Origin: Thioclava sediminum
Lineage (GTDB): Bacteria; Pseudomonadota; Alphaproteobacteria; Rhodobacterales; Rhodobacteraceae
NCBI RefSeq assembly: GCF_002020355.1
Contig: NZ_MPZV01000001.1
Location: forward strand, 1,302,001-1,366,000
DNA length: 64,000 nucleotides
Reading direction: 5' to 3'
Positions 10,509 to 19,443 of the stretch are shown here, in pieces; the first letter of the stretch is position 1, and each line of letters starts with the position of its first letter. The notes below the pieces were generated by a model. It worked only from the letters and a program-made list of their open reading frames with translations, was not told the origin of the DNA and searched no databases. The position numbers and the translations under genes were made by a program.

Positions 10509-11821
10509 CACCCCTCCCCTTCGTCATTGAGCGCATCGAGCCGCGCACGCACCGACAGCCCATGCGCCTCTAGGCTTTCCGATTTCGCCAGAACCTCGGC
10601 CGAAGGGCCGATCGCCTTCAGCGCGCCGGGCGTCATCTTCGCCAGCGTCGTGCGCTTGATGAAATCCATCACCGAGAGGCCCGAGGAGAACCGTGCCGAG
10701 CGCGCCGTAGGCAGAACGTGGTTCGGCCCGCCAATATAGTCGCCGATCGCTTCGGGCGTGTAGGCGCCAAGGAAGATCGCGCCCGCATGGGTGATCGCCT
10801 CCGCCAACCAGTCGGGATCGGCGACGCAAAGCTCCAGATGCTCGGGGGCGACCCTGTTCGACAGCTCGGCCGCCTCCATCAGATCGCGCGCGACGATCAC
10901 CGCCCCGAAGTCGCGCCAGCTCGCACCTGCAATCGCACGGCGCTCCAGCGTCTCGAGGCGCTTCTCGACTGCTGCTACCACCGCCTTGCCGAAAGCCTCG
11001 TCGGTGGTGATCAGGATCGCCTGCGCGCTCTCGTCATGCTCGGCCTGGCTCATCAAGTCGAGCGCGATCCAGTCCGGGTCGCCCGTGCCATCCGCAATCA
11101 CGAGGATTTCCGACGGGCCCGCAATCATGTCGATGCCGACGCGCCCGAAGACCCGCCGCTTGGCCGCCGCCACGAAAGCGTTGCCCGGCCCGGTGATCTT
11201 GTCGACCGCCGTGATCGTCTCGGTCCCGTAGGCCATCGCGGCAATCGCCTGCGCGCCCCCCATCCGATAGACCGTATCGACGCCCGCCAATTGCGCGGCC
11301 AGCAACACCAGCGGGTTCACCGCCCCGCCCGGCGTCGGACAGGCCACGACCAGACGCTCCACACCCGCGACCTTCGCCGGGATCGCATTCATCAGCACCG
11401 AAGAGGGATAGCTCGCCAGCCCGCCCGGAACATAGAGCCCTGCGGCGGAAACCGGCCCCCAGCGCCAGCCAAGTTCCGCCCCGCTCGCGTCGATCCAACG
11501 CGCGTCATGCGGCATCTGGCGCTCGTGATAGGCGCGGATGCGCTCGGCCGCCAGTTCCAGCGCCGCGCGCTCCTCGGCGGGCACTTTCGCGACCTCGGCC
11601 TCGATTTCCTCGGGCGAGAAGGCCAGCGTCTCGGGCGTCAGTTCCAGTCGGTCGAATTTGGCGGTCAGCTCGATCAGCGCCGCATCGCCCCGCTTGCGGA
11701 TATCCGCGATGATCCCGGCCACGACAGCATCCACATCGGGGCTGTCCTCGCGCTTCATCCCCAGAAGTTCGACAAACCGGGCCTCAAAGCCCTCTTCGCG
11801 CGTGTCCAGAAAGTGCGGCAT
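10508..11821 (-). CDS. hisD: Histidinol dehydrogenase
   Basis: 437 aa, normal length. Catalyses the last two steps of histidine synthesis (L-histidinol to L-histidine, NAD- and Zn-dependent). Motifs: AAGLYVPGG, KITGPGNAFVAAAKR, GIDMIAGPSEILVIAD, zinc/substrate residues in DLMSQAEHDESAQ, the catalytic Glu-His in NRVAPEHLEL, and YIGGPNHVLPT. It heads hisD-UPF0262-phosphatase; other his genes are not in the window. Confidence 0.97.
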   Translation of the reverse strand: MPHFLDTREEGFEARFVELLGMKREDSPDVDAVVAGIIADIRKRGDAALIELTAKFDRLELTPETLAFSPEEIEAEVAKVPAEERAALELAAERIRAYHERQMPHDARWIDASGAELGWRWGPVSAAGLYVPGGLASYPSSVLMNAIPAKVAGVERLVVACPTPGGAVNPLVLLAAQLAGVDTVYRMGGAQAIAAMAYGTETITAVDKITGPGNAFVAAAKRRVFGRVGIDMIAGPSEILVIADGTGDPDWIALDLMSQAEHDESAQAILITTDEAFGKAVVAAVEKRLETLERRAIAGASWRDFGAVIVARDLMEAAELSNRVAPEHLELCVADPDWLAEAITHAGAIFLGAYTPEAIGDYIGGPNHVLPTARSARFSSGLSVMDFIKRTTLAKMTPGALKAIGPSAEVLAKSESLEAHGLSVRARLDALNDEGEG

Positions 11822-13930: not shown

Positions 13931-13985
13931 GGCGCCTCGTTTAACCCGCCTGTGAAATCCTGTCGAGAGAGAGCAAGATTTACCC

Positions 13986-14014
13986 TTGCACCCCTTCGCG
14001 ATTGCGTCTAAATC
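13986..14014 (+). promoter_or_regulatory. Candidate tRNA-Thr promoter
   Basis: TTGCAC (13986-13991), a 17-base spacer and TAAATC (14009-14014), 34 bases ahead of the mature tRNA 5' end. Spacing and position fit a sigma-70 promoter. Confidence 0.4.
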
Positions 14015-14048
14015 CCCGCCACGGTCGAAGCGACGGACCGAAACCGGC

Positions 14049-14123
<75 letters not shown>

Positions 14124-14425
14124 CTTCCCCTTTTCAATCTCGATAGTCTGGCGTCGACCACGGGTCGCCGACGAATGTGTTGGCCCACCTTCCGTCGATT
14201 GATCAGAGGGACTGTTTCAGAGTCTCTTTCGGTGGGTGACCGTAAAGCCACAGACCCTCGATCGTTCACAAACACCTCTCGAGAGCGCGAGCGCTATTTT
14301 CCCAAGCAACCTTGGCAGCAACACAGTCAATCTAAGGTTTACCATAGGTTGTAGGAAATTCCTCAATTTCGCCACTTACCGACTGCGCGCCAACTTCGGC
14401 TCGCATGGGAAATTAGGGAAAATTA
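14124..14425. other. Non-coding, AT-richer stretch between tRNA-Thr and the Slam locus
   Basis: About 300 bases with no supportable gene; base composition is visibly less GC-rich than flanking core genes. It holds a perfect palindrome (14276-14285, CTCTCGAGAG) running into a small hairpin (14084-like AGCGC/GCGCT at 14284-14295) followed by ATTTT. The last 100 bases presumably contain the promoter of the lipoprotein gene, but I see no convincing -35/-10 pair. I found no duplicate of the tRNA 3' end that would mark an attachment site. Confidence 0.5.
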
Positions 14426-15007
14426 ATGTCTTATAAACTTTCGATTACCGCGACCGCCGTGTGTTTTGCACTTGCAGGCTGCATGGGCAGCGGGGACGGC
14501 AGCAATTCCTACAGCGCAGCTGAGGTGTCGCAGAACCAAGCCACCTACGACAGCCTTGCAACCCGCGTCACCGACGGCGACCTTTTGGTCGCTCAAGATC
14601 CGACCGGTACCGCGAGCCTTACAGGGCAGCTTAAACTTGACCCGGCCAGTGCATCTGACAACCCGGTCGCGGGCCGCTTGGCGATGGACGTTGACTTCGA
14701 CAATAGCAAAGTCACTGGCACCGTGAGCCAATTCGCTGCCTACACGCCGGACTTGAGCGAAAAAATGATGGACCTGAAAGGCTCGCTTTCCGTTAACGGG
14801 ACGATTGATAGCAAGAGCGCAATCGTGGCGAATGCCAACGGGACCGTGAGCGACGATGAAGGCAGCATAACTGCCGATCTTCAGCTGGCCGGCTCTGTCT
14901 ATGACGATAACGGAAAATATGTCGCGCTGGGCGATGTAACCGGCACCGGCGTCAGCCCCGATGGCTCCGAACAACTTACCGGCACATTCTACGCGCAGCA
15001 GCAGTAA
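14426..15007 (+). CDS. Small surface lipoprotein, predicted Slam substrate (TbpB-like beta-barrel domain)
   Basis: 193 aa. Lipoprotein signal peptide with lipobox LAGC (Cys19), then a Ser/Gly linker. The remainder is a single beta-rich domain with alternating patterns such as GRLAMDVDFDNSKVTGTVSQF and LKGSLSVNGTI, and the terminal LTGTFYAQQQ. That resembles the eight-stranded barrel of transferrin-binding-protein-B-like and factor-H-binding-like lipoproteins ('V-D-F-x-N...GT', 'G-x-F-Y'). The next gene is a Slam-type outer-membrane protein, so this is probably its cargo, flipped to the cell surface. Ligand unknown. Much shorter than two-lobed TbpB. Identification of the fold is by motif only. 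Confidence 0.75.
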   Translation: MSYKLSITATAVCFALAGCMGSGDGSNSYSAAEVSQNQATYDSLATRVTDGDLLVAQDPTGTASLTGQLKLDPASASDNPVAGRLAMDVDFDNSKVTGTVSQFAAYTPDLSEKMMDLKGSLSVNGTIDSKSAIVANANGTVSDDEGSITADLQLAGSVYDDNGKYVALGDVTGTGVSPDGSEQLTGTFYAQQQ

Positions 15008-15021
15008 ACTTCGGACATAGG

Positions 15022-15057
15022 CGCTGGGGGCCCAATGGCCTCCAGCGTTTCGATTTT
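15022..15057 (+). terminator. Terminator/attenuator between lipoprotein and Slam genes
   Basis: Eleven-pair stem (15022-15032 with 15037-15047, one G-U pair) with a CAAT loop, followed by TTTCGATTTT. It sits 14 bases after the lipoprotein stop and 17 bases before the Slam ATG. Partial read-through would give more lipoprotein than transporter mRNA. Confidence 0.7.
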
Positions 15058-15074
15058 CCAACGATGAGTTTTTC

Positions 15075-16289
15075 ATGAGCTTTTCTAAAAAGCTGCTGAC
15101 CGCGACGGTGGCTTTTCTTGCGTGTGCCACCCCTCTCTCCGCCGCACCCCAAGAGCACAGCCTCGCGGATTGGACGCAGATCGGCACGCGCCTCAGCGCC
15201 GAGGGCGACACGCTCACCGCGATCACCATTCTCGGGACGATCGCAGCGAAGGCGCCCAGCTACTCGCCGGCGCAAATCGCGCTCGAGCAAAGCCTCGACC
15301 AGATTGGCTCCCCGAAACGCGCGGATCGGGTGTTGCGCTATGTGTCGGATCGCGCGCCAGACCGCGAGCTGGCTTTCAACGCGGCTTTGCGGCGGCTCGA
15401 CCAGTCGCACCCCTGGCGGATCTCGGGGCAGGTCTCGCTTCTGCCGACGAGCAATCTAGGTCACGTCTCCTCGCAGACGGTGTTCGTCACCAAGGCGGGG
15501 CGCTTCCAGATCACGGATGGCGGCCGTGAGAGTTCGGGGTTGGGGCTCGGTGCCAGCGCGAGTGTCGACTATTACATCCACCCCGCGCTCGATTGGCGGC
15601 TTCGGCTGCGCGGCGCGGTCTCGGGTAACTGGTATTCGCCGAAGGAACTGCGCTTCGTGAAGCCGAGCCTTTCGGTGCGCTACGAACGTCTCATCGCAGG
15701 GGCGCCCTGGGGCGCGATCATCGAGGTCGGGCGCAGCTTCTATGCCGCGGCACCGGGGCAGACGCGATCTGATGCGACCGATACGAGCCTCAGTCTCGAC
15801 CGCCACTGGCGACTCGCACATGACGCCAACCTCACGGTCATCGGCTCCGCCACGCAAAGCCGTTTCGAAGAAAAGCGCTACCTTAACGGGCCGCGCTACG
15901 CACTCAATCTGGGCTACGACCGGGCCATTTGGCGAAGGTCGCGCATCGACCTCGGGTTACGGCTCGAGCGCGCGGATGTGCGCAGCGACTATCAAAGCTA
16001 CACGCGCGCGGCCCTGACCGTCGGAGCCAGCCGTCGCCTCACGAAAACGCTGAGCGCGAAGCTCTCCGCGACCGTGGGCGTGCGCGATTTCGATGGCGAC
16101 TTTCCGTTGTTCGGGAAGCCGCGCATGGATCGCGATATCTCCCTCACCGCCTCGGTCGGTCTGGACCGCTTCAAGGTGATGGGCACGACTCCGCAATTAA
16201 GTTGCACCGCGCGCCGCAACCGGTCGAACGTCTCGCTTTACAGCTATCGCTCGCTCGATTGCGGCGTGCATTTCATAAGTCGGTTCTGA
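15075..16289 (+). CDS. Surface lipoprotein assembly modifier (Slam/DUF560-like outer-membrane protein)
   Basis: 404 aa. Signal peptide about residues 1-23 (ends LSAAPQ); a periplasmic alpha-helical TPR-like region about 25-105 (WTQIGTRLSAEGDTLTAITILGTIAAKAP...); then from HPWRISGQVSLLPTSNLG a C-terminal beta-barrel with many aromatic-edged strands, ending in Phe (DCGVHFISRF), the outer-membrane insertion signature. TPR plus 14-strand barrel is the Slam architecture; Slams move specific lipoproteins to the cell surface (type XI secretion). Somewhat shorter than neisserial Slam1 (about 480 aa). Paired with the upstream lipoprotein gene. The 3' end overlaps the convergent LuxR-type gene by 17 bases. 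Confidence 0.82.
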   Translation: MSFSKKLLTATVAFLACATPLSAAPQEHSLADWTQIGTRLSAEGDTLTAITILGTIAAKAPSYSPAQIALEQSLDQIGSPKRADRVLRYVSDRAPDRELAFNAALRRLDQSHPWRISGQVSLLPTSNLGHVSSQTVFVTKAGRFQITDGGRESSGLGLGASASVDYYIHPALDWRLRLRGAVSGNWYSPKELRFVKPSLSVRYERLIAGAPWGAIIEVGRSFYAAAPGQTRSDATDTSLSLDRHWRLAHDANLTVIGSATQSRFEEKRYLNGPRYALNLGYDRAIWRRSRIDLGLRLERADVRSDYQSYTRAALTVGASRRLTKTLSAKLSATVGVRDFDGDFPLFGKPRMDRDISLTASVGLDRFKVMGTTPQLSCTARRNRSNVSLYSYRSLDCGVHFISRF

Positions 16290-16854
16290 GAGGGTATTCT
16301 TCGCAGAGACCCAACTCCACGACCCGTGCGACGACGGCATTGGTCGTGCGAAGGCCGAACTTCTCGCGCAGGTTCCGCAGATGCATATCCACCGTCGAGA
16401 CCGAAAGACCCAATGCGAAGGCGACTTGTTCCCGGCGCTCGCCACGCACGGCGCGGGCGAGAATCTGGCGTTCGCGGCATGTTATGTGTGGCGTATCTTC
16501 TTCCCAAACGGTCTCTGGCGCGTTCAAAAACAAGATACAGCGCGCGCGTCCGGGAGCGAGCGGCAGCAGATTGATCTGTCGCAGGCTCGGCAGGCGCTTG
16601 AGTCGAGGCCGCAGCACGGCGGCTTGCGCCTCCCAACGCGCGGTCGCCGAGAGGACCGGCGCCCTAAGAAGGCGTCCGCCCGGCACCATTGACAGGCTGA
16701 GCGGCTCGCGCGCGGTGATCCCGAGGTCTCGTTTTATGAAGCGCTGCATCGGGATATTGGGGCCGGCGACGACCCCGGATGAAAAAATATCGCAGGCGGC
16801 CTCCAGCGCAGCGCACTGGCTAACCCCTGCGCCGTTTTGAAACGGATAGGTCAT
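16273..16854 (-). CDS. LuxR-type HTH transcriptional regulator
   Basis: 193 aa from the ATG at 16854 (a TTG at 16875 would add 7 residues). The C-terminal domain is a clear LuxR/GerE helix-turn-helix: ITCRERQILARAVRGERREQVAFALGLSVSTVDMHLRNLREKFGLRTTNAVVARVVELGL. The N-terminal ~125 residues show no receiver aspartate or autoinducer-binding pattern that I recognise. It converges on the Slam gene with a 17-base overlap and has an inverted repeat just upstream. A role in controlling the Slam locus is suggested only by position. Confidence 0.85.
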   Translation of the reverse strand: MTYPFQNGAGVSQCAALEAACDIFSSGVVAGPNIPMQRFIKRDLGITAREPLSLSMVPGGRLLRAPVLSATARWEAQAAVLRPRLKRLPSLRQINLLPLAPGRARCILFLNAPETVWEEDTPHITCRERQILARAVRGERREQVAFALGLSVSTVDMHLRNLREKFGLRTTNAVVARVVELGLCEEYPLRTDL

Positions 16855-16863
16855 GAAATCTCT

Positions 16864-16896
16864 GAATGAATACAAGTATCTATATATGATTCATTC
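16864..16896. promoter_or_regulatory. Inverted repeat upstream of the LuxR-type gene
   Basis: Perfect 8-base arms GAATGAAT (16864-16871) and ATTCATTC (16889-16896) with a 17-base AT-rich spacer, starting 10 bases upstream of the ATG. Placement over the expected promoter or leader suggests an operator, perhaps autoregulatory. Confidence 0.45.
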
Positions 16897-16938
16897 GTAG
16901 CCGATTTCTGACTCCGATCACAATCGAATTCACTAATA

Positions 16939-16962
16939 CTCACAAAAAAATATTGTTGTGAG
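16939..16962 (-). terminator. Hairpin downstream of the TRAP/DUF1850 operon
   Basis: CTCACAA (16939-16945) pairs with TTGTGAG (16956-16962) around a 10-base A/T loop, 23 bases past the DUF1850 stop codon. No U-tract follows in the minus-strand reading, so termination is uncertain; it may be a 3' stabiliser or an operator. Confidence 0.35.
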
Positions 16963-16984
16963 GGAAGAAAAACTCAATCTAAAT

Positions 16985-17365
16985 CTAATCGCCCTTCGCC
17001 CCGTCGCAGGGTGCGATGTGGATCGGGGCTTCGCGGTCGGCGCCGATGGTTTCGCAGCCTTTCGAGCAGAGCGTCCAGCCCGAGATCGTGGCGCCGGAAG
17101 CCGCGAGGTTCAGCGCGGGGACGTCCGGCCCGTCTGCCGTCCAGACCCACCAGCCATCCTCGAAATGACCGCCCGGGCCCGGCTCCATCCCCGCGCCCGA
17201 GCCTTTGACCGCCGCACCCACGAGGCGCAGCGTGTCATGGTCGGTCACCTGCCAATGTTCGCGCCAGCCTTCGTGCTCGACCGAATGCATCCATTGCAGC
17301 GAGAACTGACCGTTGCTCGCCAGCGCCATCATCGTAGCGCCGACCATCAGGCAGGACGCGCTCAT
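16985..17365 (-). CDS. DUF1850 domain-containing protein (TRAP-associated)
   Basis: 126 aa. Short hydrophobic N-terminus, then the DUF1850 core: FSLQWMHSVEHEGWREHWQV (an 'HSVE' motif) and GAAVKGSGAGMEPGPGGHFEDGWW. Such proteins are almost always encoded with fused-permease TAXI-type TRAP transporters and are probably membrane-linked or periplasmic; the role is not known. The ATG overlaps the permease stop (ATGA). Confidence 0.88.
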   Translation of the reverse strand: MSASCLMVGATMMALASNGQFSLQWMHSVEHEGWREHWQVTDHDTLRLVGAAVKGSGAGMEPGPGGHFEDGWWVWTADGPDVPALNLAASGATISGWTLCSKGCETIGADREAPIHIAPCDGAKGD

Positions 17366-19443
17366 GCCGTGGCTCGCTTGCGGCCCAGCCAGAGCGCCGC
17401 GCCGAAGGCTGCGACGAGCGCGAAGCCGATCTCGTCGGTCAGCGGCAGCGCCGCGATCAGGGTGAAGCCCGCGACCATGGCCAATGCCCGCTCCCAAAGC
17501 GCCAGCGGACGGCCCAGCCAGCCGATCACCGCGACACCCCAGAGCGACAGTGCCAGCAGCGCCTTGATCACGATATAGGCTACGGCTGGCCAGTAGCCGA
17601 TCGCGGCCGCCAGCGGCCCGCCATCCTGCAGCATCAGCGCGGGCGTGTAGACCGCCATGAAGGGCACGACGAAACCCGCGGCGGCGACCTTGATCGCCTC
17701 GAAACTGATCTTCAGCCCGCTTTCCTTCGCGATGGGCGCGGCGGCGAAACAGGCCAGAGCCACAGGCGGCGTCAGGTCCGCAAGGATTCCGAAATAGAAG
17801 ACGAACATGTGGCTGACGATCAGCGGCACGCCGAGGTCCAGAAGCGCCGGGCCCGCAATCGAGGAGGTGATGATGTAGTTCGGGATCGTCGGGATCCCCA
17901 TCCCCAGCACGATGCAGGTAATCATGGTCAGGATCAGCGAGAGGAACAGGCTCGACTTGCCGACACCGACGATGAACTGGCCGAAGGTGGTCGCGGCCCC
18001 GGTCAGGGTCATCACGCCAATGATCACGCCGACCAGCGCGCAGGCGATCCCCACGGGAAGCGCGGTGCGTGCGCCATCGGCGAGGCTGTCCCGGCACAGC
18101 GCGAGCGTCTCGCGCCCGCCCTTCGAGAAGACGTTGATCGCGATCAGCACCGCGATGGCAAGCAGCACGGCCCAGATGCCGAACTCGAAAAACGCCGCCG
18201 CGACCAGAGCCAGAACGACCCAGAAGATCACGCGCAGCACCTGATTGGGCAGCCCCAGCGCGACCGACCCACCGAGGATCAACAGCCCCGTCAGCGACAG
18301 GCCCACGGTGCCAGCGAAAAGCGGCGTGTAGCCGGTGAACAGCAGGTAGACGAGCACGGCGAGCGGAAGCAGCAGATACCAGCCCTCTTTCAGCGCCTTG
18401 CGTGGGGAGGGCAGCTCGGACTTGGCAAGGCCGCGCAGGTCGCGTTTGCCCGCCTCCAGATGCACCATCCAGAAGGCGCCCGCGAAATAGAGGATCGCCG
18501 GGATCAGCGCGGCTTTCACCACCTCGACGTAATCGACGCCCAGCGTCTCTGCCATGATGAAGGCCACGGCCCCCATGACCGGCGGCATGATCTGCCCGCC
18601 CATCGACGAGGTCGCTTCGACGCCGCCCGCGAAGGCGGAGCGATAGCCGAAGCTCTTCATCAGAGGGATCGTGAATTGCCCGGTGGTCACGACATTGGCC
18701 ACACCCGAGCCCGAGATCGTGCCCATCAGACCCGAAGACAGAACCGAGACCTTCGCGGCCCCGCCCATCTTGTGCCCGACCATCCCGAGCGAGACATCCG
18801 TGAACAGTTTGATCATCCCGGCCTTCTCGAGGAAGGCGCCGAAGAGGATGAACAGGAAGATATAGGTGGCCGACACATAGGTCGGGATGCCGTAGATGCC
18901 CTCGGTGCCAAAGCTCATCTGTTCGATCACCTGCTCGAAAGCGTAGCCGCGGTGGTTCAGCGGTGACGGCAGATGCTCACCGAACATGGCATAAAGGAAG
19001 AAAGTGCCCGCGATGATCGGCAGCGCCGGGCCCATCAGCATCCAGGCGGCCACGAAGACCGTGACCAGCAGCACGCAGCCCACCACCAAATCGAGCGTGT
19101 TCGGATCGCCCGCGCGCAGCAGAAGCGGCGTGTATTCGATCCATTGATAGGCGGCGACAGCGACTCCGGCTGCGGCCAGCAGATAGGCGAGCGCGCGCCC
19201 GAGCGGGCCGTAACCTTTGGCGATGGCAAGCAGCGGAAAGCCGAGCGCGAGCAGGAAGCCCACATGGACTGCCCGCGCAATCTGGCTCGAGGGGTTGATG
19301 ACATGGGCGGCGAAAGCGATTTGCCAGACCGAGAAAGCGACCGCGAGCCAGAACAACGCGCGCCCTTCGCGCGACTTCGGAAAGCCCCCCGCCAGCGGAT
19401 CGTGCACTGCCGCGTCGACCGCAGCTTCTTCCTTGGTGTCCAT
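17362..19443 (-). CDS. TRAP transporter fused permease (4TM + 12TM)
   Basis: 693 aa, very hydrophobic, about 16-17 membrane segments. The N-terminal ~200 residues correspond to the small DctQ-like part. The DctM-like part then carries AGMIKLFTDVSLGMVGHKMGGAAKVSVLSSGLMGTISGSGVANVVTTGQFTIPLMK and, later, CIVLGMGIPTIPNYII and FGILADLTPPVALACF, hallmarks of the TRAP large subunit. Inner-membrane, ion-driven uptake working with the TAXI binding protein encoded upstream. Substrate unknown; TAXI systems often carry dicarboxylates or amino acids. Confidence 0.95.
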   Translation of the reverse strand: MDTKEEAAVDAAVHDPLAGGFPKSREGRALFWLAVAFSVWQIAFAAHVINPSSQIARAVHVGFLLALGFPLLAIAKGYGPLGRALAYLLAAAGVAVAAYQWIEYTPLLLRAGDPNTLDLVVGCVLLVTVFVAAWMLMGPALPIIAGTFFLYAMFGEHLPSPLNHRGYAFEQVIEQMSFGTEGIYGIPTYVSATYIFLFILFGAFLEKAGMIKLFTDVSLGMVGHKMGGAAKVSVLSSGLMGTISGSGVANVVTTGQFTIPLMKSFGYRSAFAGGVEATSSMGGQIMPPVMGAVAFIMAETLGVDYVEVVKAALIPAILYFAGAFWMVHLEAGKRDLRGLAKSELPSPRKALKEGWYLLLPLAVLVYLLFTGYTPLFAGTVGLSLTGLLILGGSVALGLPNQVLRVIFWVVLALVAAAFFEFGIWAVLLAIAVLIAINVFSKGGRETLALCRDSLADGARTALPVGIACALVGVIIGVMTLTGAATTFGQFIVGVGKSSLFLSLILTMITCIVLGMGIPTIPNYIITSSIAGPALLDLGVPLIVSHMFVFYFGILADLTPPVALACFAAAPIAKESGLKISFEAIKVAAAGFVVPFMAVYTPALMLQDGGPLAAAIGYWPAVAYIVIKALLALSLWGVAVIGWLGRPLALWERALAMVAGFTLIAALPLTDEIGFALVAAFGAALWLGRKRATA

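Follow-up and report, generated by a model that had tools for sequence, protein, structure and literature searches.

The unit described here lies in a 64,000-nucleotide stretch of DNA (the window) from a Thioclava species (Rhodobacteraceae), which supports the alphaproteobacterial host named by an initial annotation of the sequence. It comprises the following features, with a tRNA gene flanking it:

14049–14123, + strand: tRNA-Thr, outside the unit itself, an insertion site in related genomes
14328–14351, no strand: 24-bp lux-box-like palindrome, an exact match to the consensus and the presumed operator of the cargo promoter
14426–15007, + strand: small lipoprotein cargo, 193 aa (lipobox; AlphaFold model; sub-threshold TbpB_B_D and slam_lipo matches)
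15022–15047, + strand: GC-rich hairpin between the cargo and Slam genes, from the folding energy of the gap
15075–16289, + strand: Slam-family outer-membrane protein, 404 aa (SlipAM, 72.2 bits; TPR helices and a 14-strand barrel)
16273–16854, - strand: LuxR-type (GerE) HTH regulator, 193 aa from its ATG (GerE, 37.4 bits; linkage)

The unit is positioned between tRNA-Thr and a DUF1850-TRAP-TAXI group. The neighbours tested were hisD, DUF2948, murA, tRNA-Thr, DUF1850, the TRAP/TAXI transporter, and an AbrB family gene. No TonB-dependent receptor is among them, in agreement with the initial annotation. The LuxR gene is convergent (tail-to-tail) with the Slam gene and overlaps its end by 17 bp; a TTG at 16875 is a possible alternative to the ATG start. 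The window genome has three SlipAM loci, this unit and two more, and the Slam protein recurs at 98% in Thioclava sp. JE_KL1.

The central observation of the initial annotation, a Slam-type protein directly after a single-barrel lipoprotein, is borne out by the two open reading frames, the barrel model of the lipoprotein, and the match of the second protein to PF04575 SlipAM (72.2 bits, E 6.8e-20, cut-off 22). The lipoprotein has a LAGC lipobox with the acceptor at Cys19, read from the sequence by eye, and this Cys is invariant across 14 cargo relatives. The mature protein has 175 aa, a mass of 17.8 kDa, and a pI of 4.05, and cargo length across units is about 182–218 aa. At 193 aa the cargo is below the 282–375 aa of the cargo predicted in PMC12282271 for a locus conserved in Rhodobacteraceae/Roseobacteraceae, in keeping with its earlier description as small and single-domain.

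The AlphaFold model of the cargo (14-row alignment, pLDDT 89, pTM 0.81) consists of a disordered N-terminus (residues 1–23, pLDDT < 50), a helix at 31–50, and eight barrel strands at 62–192. A handle or pedestal before the barrel is absent from this model, in which only the helix precedes the barrel. Because the model has no N-terminal domain, ligand binding, if any, would be predicted to use the barrel loops or the helix. A TbpB-like barrel had been proposed for this protein, and the predicted eight-stranded fold agrees, but the sequence matches are sub-threshold, so that the likeness to TbpB rests on the predicted fold. TbpB_B_D (Pfam) scores 18.3 bits against a cut-off of 26, slam_lipo (NCBIfam) scores 19.8 bits against 80, and the FHBP_C and HphA_C matches are also below cut-off; neither TbpB_B_D nor slam_lipo gives a curated family match above cut-off for the cargo. 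Among the 14 cargo relatives, TbpB_B_D touches seven (E up to 0.1) and slam_lipo five (E up to 0.01). Single and profile searches of the cargo sequence against solved structures gave no meaningful match, and Foldseek of the model against the PDB gave none at E 0.001 or better. The NHBA C-terminal barrel fills the first two places (E 1.5e-3, probability 1.00, TM 0.36–0.51; PDB 6cuj is the best match, with identity of 22% or less over the aligned part), and the top 50 include avidins and the haemophores 6om5 and 8glo. These PDB matches are weak but coherent.

The Slam model (pLDDT 90) has helices at 30–111 followed by 14 long barrel strands ending in Phe, and its best fold match in Foldseek is the porin OmpG. 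Pfam TPR scores 15.7 bits on the single sequence, below its cut-off of 25; a profile from 22 Slam relatives searched against solved structures matches TPR proteins at 32–103. Structure prediction of both proteins had been proposed as a check, and the resulting models give a barrel for the cargo and the TPR-plus-barrel architecture for the Slam protein. From the lipobox and general knowledge, the cargo would be exported by Sec, lipidated at Cys19, and transported by Lol to the outer membrane. If Slam work in other bacteria is a guide, the TPR domain would then take up the cargo and the barrel would pass it outward, where it would fold into a bare barrel of eight strands, tethered through a short linker and a single helix. 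By this analogy, the cargo is probably displayed on the surface by the adjacent Slam.

A search for the gene pair elsewhere, also suggested at the outset, found it in Thioclava genomes and in other genera, and because of this recurrence the pairing is more than chance. The initial annotation had regarded the pair as a self-contained two-gene unit. The cargo-Slam pair stands, but a LuxR gene and the palindrome recur with it. The window LuxR has a GerE HTH domain (37.4 bits, cut-off 23.5). No Pfam match to an autoinducer-binding domain was found up to E 5, and its TIGR03541 match is confined to the HTH end. Relatives occur in short (about 160–245 aa) and long (363–364 aa) forms.

A single-sequence LuxR search of 16 whole Thioclava genomes (E up to 1e-6) gave 18 matches, 15 of which are within 4 kb of a SlipAM gene. 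The LuxR-linked loci make up 15 of the 23 SlipAM loci; 14 have a small cargo and one, in G305 (L045), is a decayed remnant without cargo. The other eight SlipAM loci had no such LuxR nearby in the same search, with the wider neighbourhood inspected for six of the eight. None of the remaining three matches is beside a SlipAM gene; two are weak (6e-7 and 9e-7) and the third is a 95-residue fragment in G302 that shares the chromosomal site of the window unit. Small-cargo Slam is absent from all five genomes without a LuxR match; a single SlipAM locus, of a different type, is present in G303, and none in G296, G304, G306, or G308. In the fetched loci, a LuxR of at least 55 bits is present in all 18 distinct loci of the window's Slam type (16 intact units, the remnant L045, and L064, which is cut by a contig end) and in 0 of 19 other fetched Slam loci, where the highest score is 46 bits. 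The profile used for the fetched loci was built from 11 of the same LuxRs and therefore favours them, a fault that the single-sequence search does not share. A LuxR of this kind is also found at close relatives of the unit in three other genera (L064, L065, L066). In one of these, L065 (7986–12492; G260), three LuxR genes or fragments adjoin a single unit, along with an integrase-like gene and another palindrome, at 11071 with 2 mismatches.

The palindrome has the consensus CAAYCTA-N10-TAGRTTG with a core of ACCTAT-N8-ATAGGT. Length and arm spacing of this core equal those of the lux box ACCTGTAGGATCGTACAGGT as given in the available part of PMC4444344. Within the window no other site matches with 2 or fewer mismatches (shuffled mean 0.09), and within the window genome no other matches with 1 or fewer. 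Of 16 distinct intact units, 15 have the palindrome with no more than 2 mismatches, ending 73–89 bp before the cargo start; the exception, L054, is without the standard spacing and has similar arms farther apart. Across the 16 Thioclava genomes, up to 1 mismatch gives eight places, seven of them upstream of a cargo gene, against two places for the reversed control. The eighth (G297:C14:84154) falls inside a predicted coding gene and was set down to chance. Allowing 2 mismatches raises the total in these genomes to 97, against 160 for the reversed control; as this is no enrichment, position is all that speaks for the weaker sites. In the family as a whole, the pattern occurs with at most 1 mismatch in 83 of 394 genomes; many genomes also contain the reversed control (counts not summed), so chance may explain most of these matches. 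Symmetric palindromes like that of the window adjoin other LuxR-type or response-regulator genes in other genera (L148, L150, L152, L153, L154), and these are perhaps lux boxes of their own. In G156 an exact palindrome ends 81 bp before a contig end, and the Slam gene of this genome is truncated on its 5′ side at another contig end. A cargo gene lost in the assembly gap would give this arrangement, though this is not proved.

The cargo, Slam, and LuxR proteins also diverge together. Over 16 units, cargo distances correlate at 0.98 with Slam and 0.92 with LuxR distances, and Slam with LuxR distances at 0.89 (0/5000 permutations each); in 11 non-redundant units the three values are 0.91, 0.78, and 0.63. 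Against murA, in 14 Thioclava units, cargo, Slam, and LuxR give 0.33, 0.34, and 0.30, with 194–227 of 5000 permutations as high, and some agreement with species therefore remains. Because the distances of the three genes agree with one another but poorly with murA, the genes seem, on sequence comparison, to move between genomes as one block. Flanking genes differ from one unit type to another.

Gene content, predicted folds, recurrent linkage, the conserved palindrome, and co-divergence are established here. They are best explained by a Slam (type XI secretion) cassette that is mobile and has a LuxR-type regulator of its own, a reading given a probability of about 0.6. In such a cassette, the LuxR protein would sense a signal, bind the palindrome at 14328–14351, and control the cargo promoter, a route of control that we infer from the sequence data, and cargo, Slam, and LuxR would transfer between genomes as a matched set. 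The broader proposal is a family of cassettes, each with a handle-less, barrel-only cargo, a private Slam, and a private LuxR switch, that co-diverge and enter different chromosomal sites together; its prospects are evenly balanced.

The alternative that survives best is an ordinary Slam-cargo pair in which the LuxR is a passenger with other targets and the palindrome is the site of a different LuxR-type regulator in the cell. LuxR placement does vary among units, being downstream on the same strand, convergent, upstream and divergent, or about 3 kb off (L055), and palindrome near-matches have a LuxR-type or response-regulator HTH gene beside them at five of nine family loci picked by eye. However, a passenger would not readily account for linkage that recurs across loci with differing flanks, for the co-divergence of all three genes, or for a site that, at up to 1 mismatch, lies almost exclusively at cargo promoters across the 16 Thioclava genomes, and this alternative is considered unlikely.

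Less probable again is that the TPR-plus-barrel protein exports another substrate, such as a polysaccharide, with the lipoprotein as a periplasmic accessory. EpsL, PelB, and BcsC would be the precedents; PelB and BcsC are among the Foldseek matches of the Slam model, and EpsL matches weakly at 21.6 bits against a cut-off of 275. Set against this are a SlipAM score well above cut-off, tested neighbours that are not polysaccharide genes, and a lipoprotein that is predicted to be of the Slam-cargo barrel type and co-diverges with Slam, making such a role a poor prospect.

The adjacent tRNA-Thr is a variable insertion site in Thioclava (L080, L081, L082, L085). In G302 and G298, inserts at this site are bordered by a duplicated tRNA 3′ end, the duplications beside the inserted genes being 35 and 53 bp at 100% (L080, L081). 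Other genes occupy the site in G297 and other genomes, and two other genes fill the slot in G296; some of the genes at the site read by eye as integrase or phage genes. No convincing target-site repeat was found around the unit (13950–17400), and a plasmid collection searched with the Slam protein gave no match at E 1e-10. In G305 the window's chromosomal site holds the remnant L045, from which the cargo and the Slam N-terminus are lost while the 3′ part of the LuxR gene remains, with transposon-like genes nearby. Another reading, in which the island genes are decaying or silent and no longer function, would suit the degraded copies that two relatives (L045, L080) hold at this site and the low GC of the region upstream of the cargo (51.7%) and of the cargo (57.6%) against the window mean of 64.3%, but it is very improbable given that the cargo, Slam, and LuxR open reading frames of the window are all intact and that the nearest relative, G307, retains all three genes at 97–98% with an exact palindrome.

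Compared with known systems, the window unit resembles Slam or T11SS loci with TbpB, fHbp, HpuA, or PmSLP-1 cargo in its SlipAM match, TPR helices, 14-strand barrel, and adjoining eight-stranded-barrel lipoprotein. It differs in its linked LuxR and in having no TonB-dependent receptor among the neighbours tested. PmSLP-1, HpuA, and fHbp carry an N-terminal handle of 5–6 strands in the accounts available, whereas the window cargo has one helix only. With LuxR-type quorum-sensing regulators the LuxR shares the GerE HTH, but it is without a match to the autoinducer-binding domain (up to E 5).

Slam proteins in the Rhodobacteraceae/Roseobacteraceae have already been published (PMC12282271), and this was the only paper returned for DUF560 with Rhodobacteraceae. 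As far as its available text goes, the marine cluster 3 T11SS it describes is from the same bacterial family and has a lipoprotein cargo with a C-terminal barrel. The locus there includes ThyX, glyoxalase, and DUF1194 genes, whereas the tested neighbours of the window unit are of other families. The cargo there, of 282–375 aa, has a pedestal and an N-terminal domain, in contrast to the window type of about 182–218 aa with its LuxR and palindrome. The words 'LuxR' and 'regulator' are absent from the main text of PMC12282271. DUF560 and LuxR were not found together in the papers searched, nor was T11SS combined with an operator, a regulator, and a lipoprotein. The one paper combining Slam, its full name, and LuxR appears to concern siderophore production in Lysobacter. 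In the literature searched, including the available parts of PMC12282271, PMC8406197, and PMC5449769, no linked LuxR, operator, or handle-less cargo was found.

Such a cargo bears on how Slam recognises its substrates. PMC12080921, in the part available, postulates that the cargo barrel is the motif recognised and that function comes from the N-terminal domain and the loops, and published Slam cargo, as far as the sources at hand describe them, carry a handle, a pedestal, or another N-terminal part. A naturally bare barrel of 175 mature residues, paired with its own Slam, offers a ready-made minimal substrate on which to ask whether the barrel suffices. The LuxR gene and palindrome are likewise a concrete, testable candidate for how environmental bacteria might switch a type XI system. 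If the cassette reading is true, a bare barrel would be enough for Slam export, Slam display could fall under LuxR-type control, and marine bacteria would gain exchangeable, signal-controlled surface coats.

The hairpin between the cargo and Slam genes is less distinctive. The gap folds at -27.5 kcal/mol (z -3.49), and in each of the 15 units tested the gap holds a hairpin of -18 kcal/mol or stronger. However, 55% of 77 control gaps of 50–130 bp also form one at -15 kcal/mol or stronger, and a terminator scan of 14100–17000 found none where shuffles average 3.2; together these weaken the hairpin as a distinctive conserved terminator. That it may hold Slam transcripts below cargo transcripts is speculative, and the controls make the idea weak. 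A search of 14100–17000 for sigma-70-like promoters was also negative.

Across the Rhodobacteraceae, PF04575 Slam genes are common, being present in 145 of 394 genomes, and 50 genomes have a cargo-profile match, 24 of them without a PF04575 match. A profile of window-type Slams gives a barrel-covering match (E 1e-5 or better) in 20 of these 24, and PF04575 may therefore miss divergent Slams, judging by these profile matches. The idea of cargo without Slam was dropped after this result; the opposite stays unproved, as the comparison covers cargo-containing genomes only. Small lipoproteins matching the cargo profile also occur away from Slam, singly or in tandem, in other Rhodobacteraceae genera (L124–L131, L133, L135–L142), in genomes that include the 24 lacking a PF04575 match, and several of these adjoin a prfC-like gene. 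Another Slam type in Thioclava is represented by L057 (2911–7645 on contig 3 of the window genome) and the similar L058, L060, and L063, where the SlipAM protein is beside an RTX-repeat protein of about 805 aa and a small lipoprotein, and adjoining genes resemble, by eye, those of a type I secretion pair. The small lipoprotein of L057 matches the cargo profile at E 2e-15.
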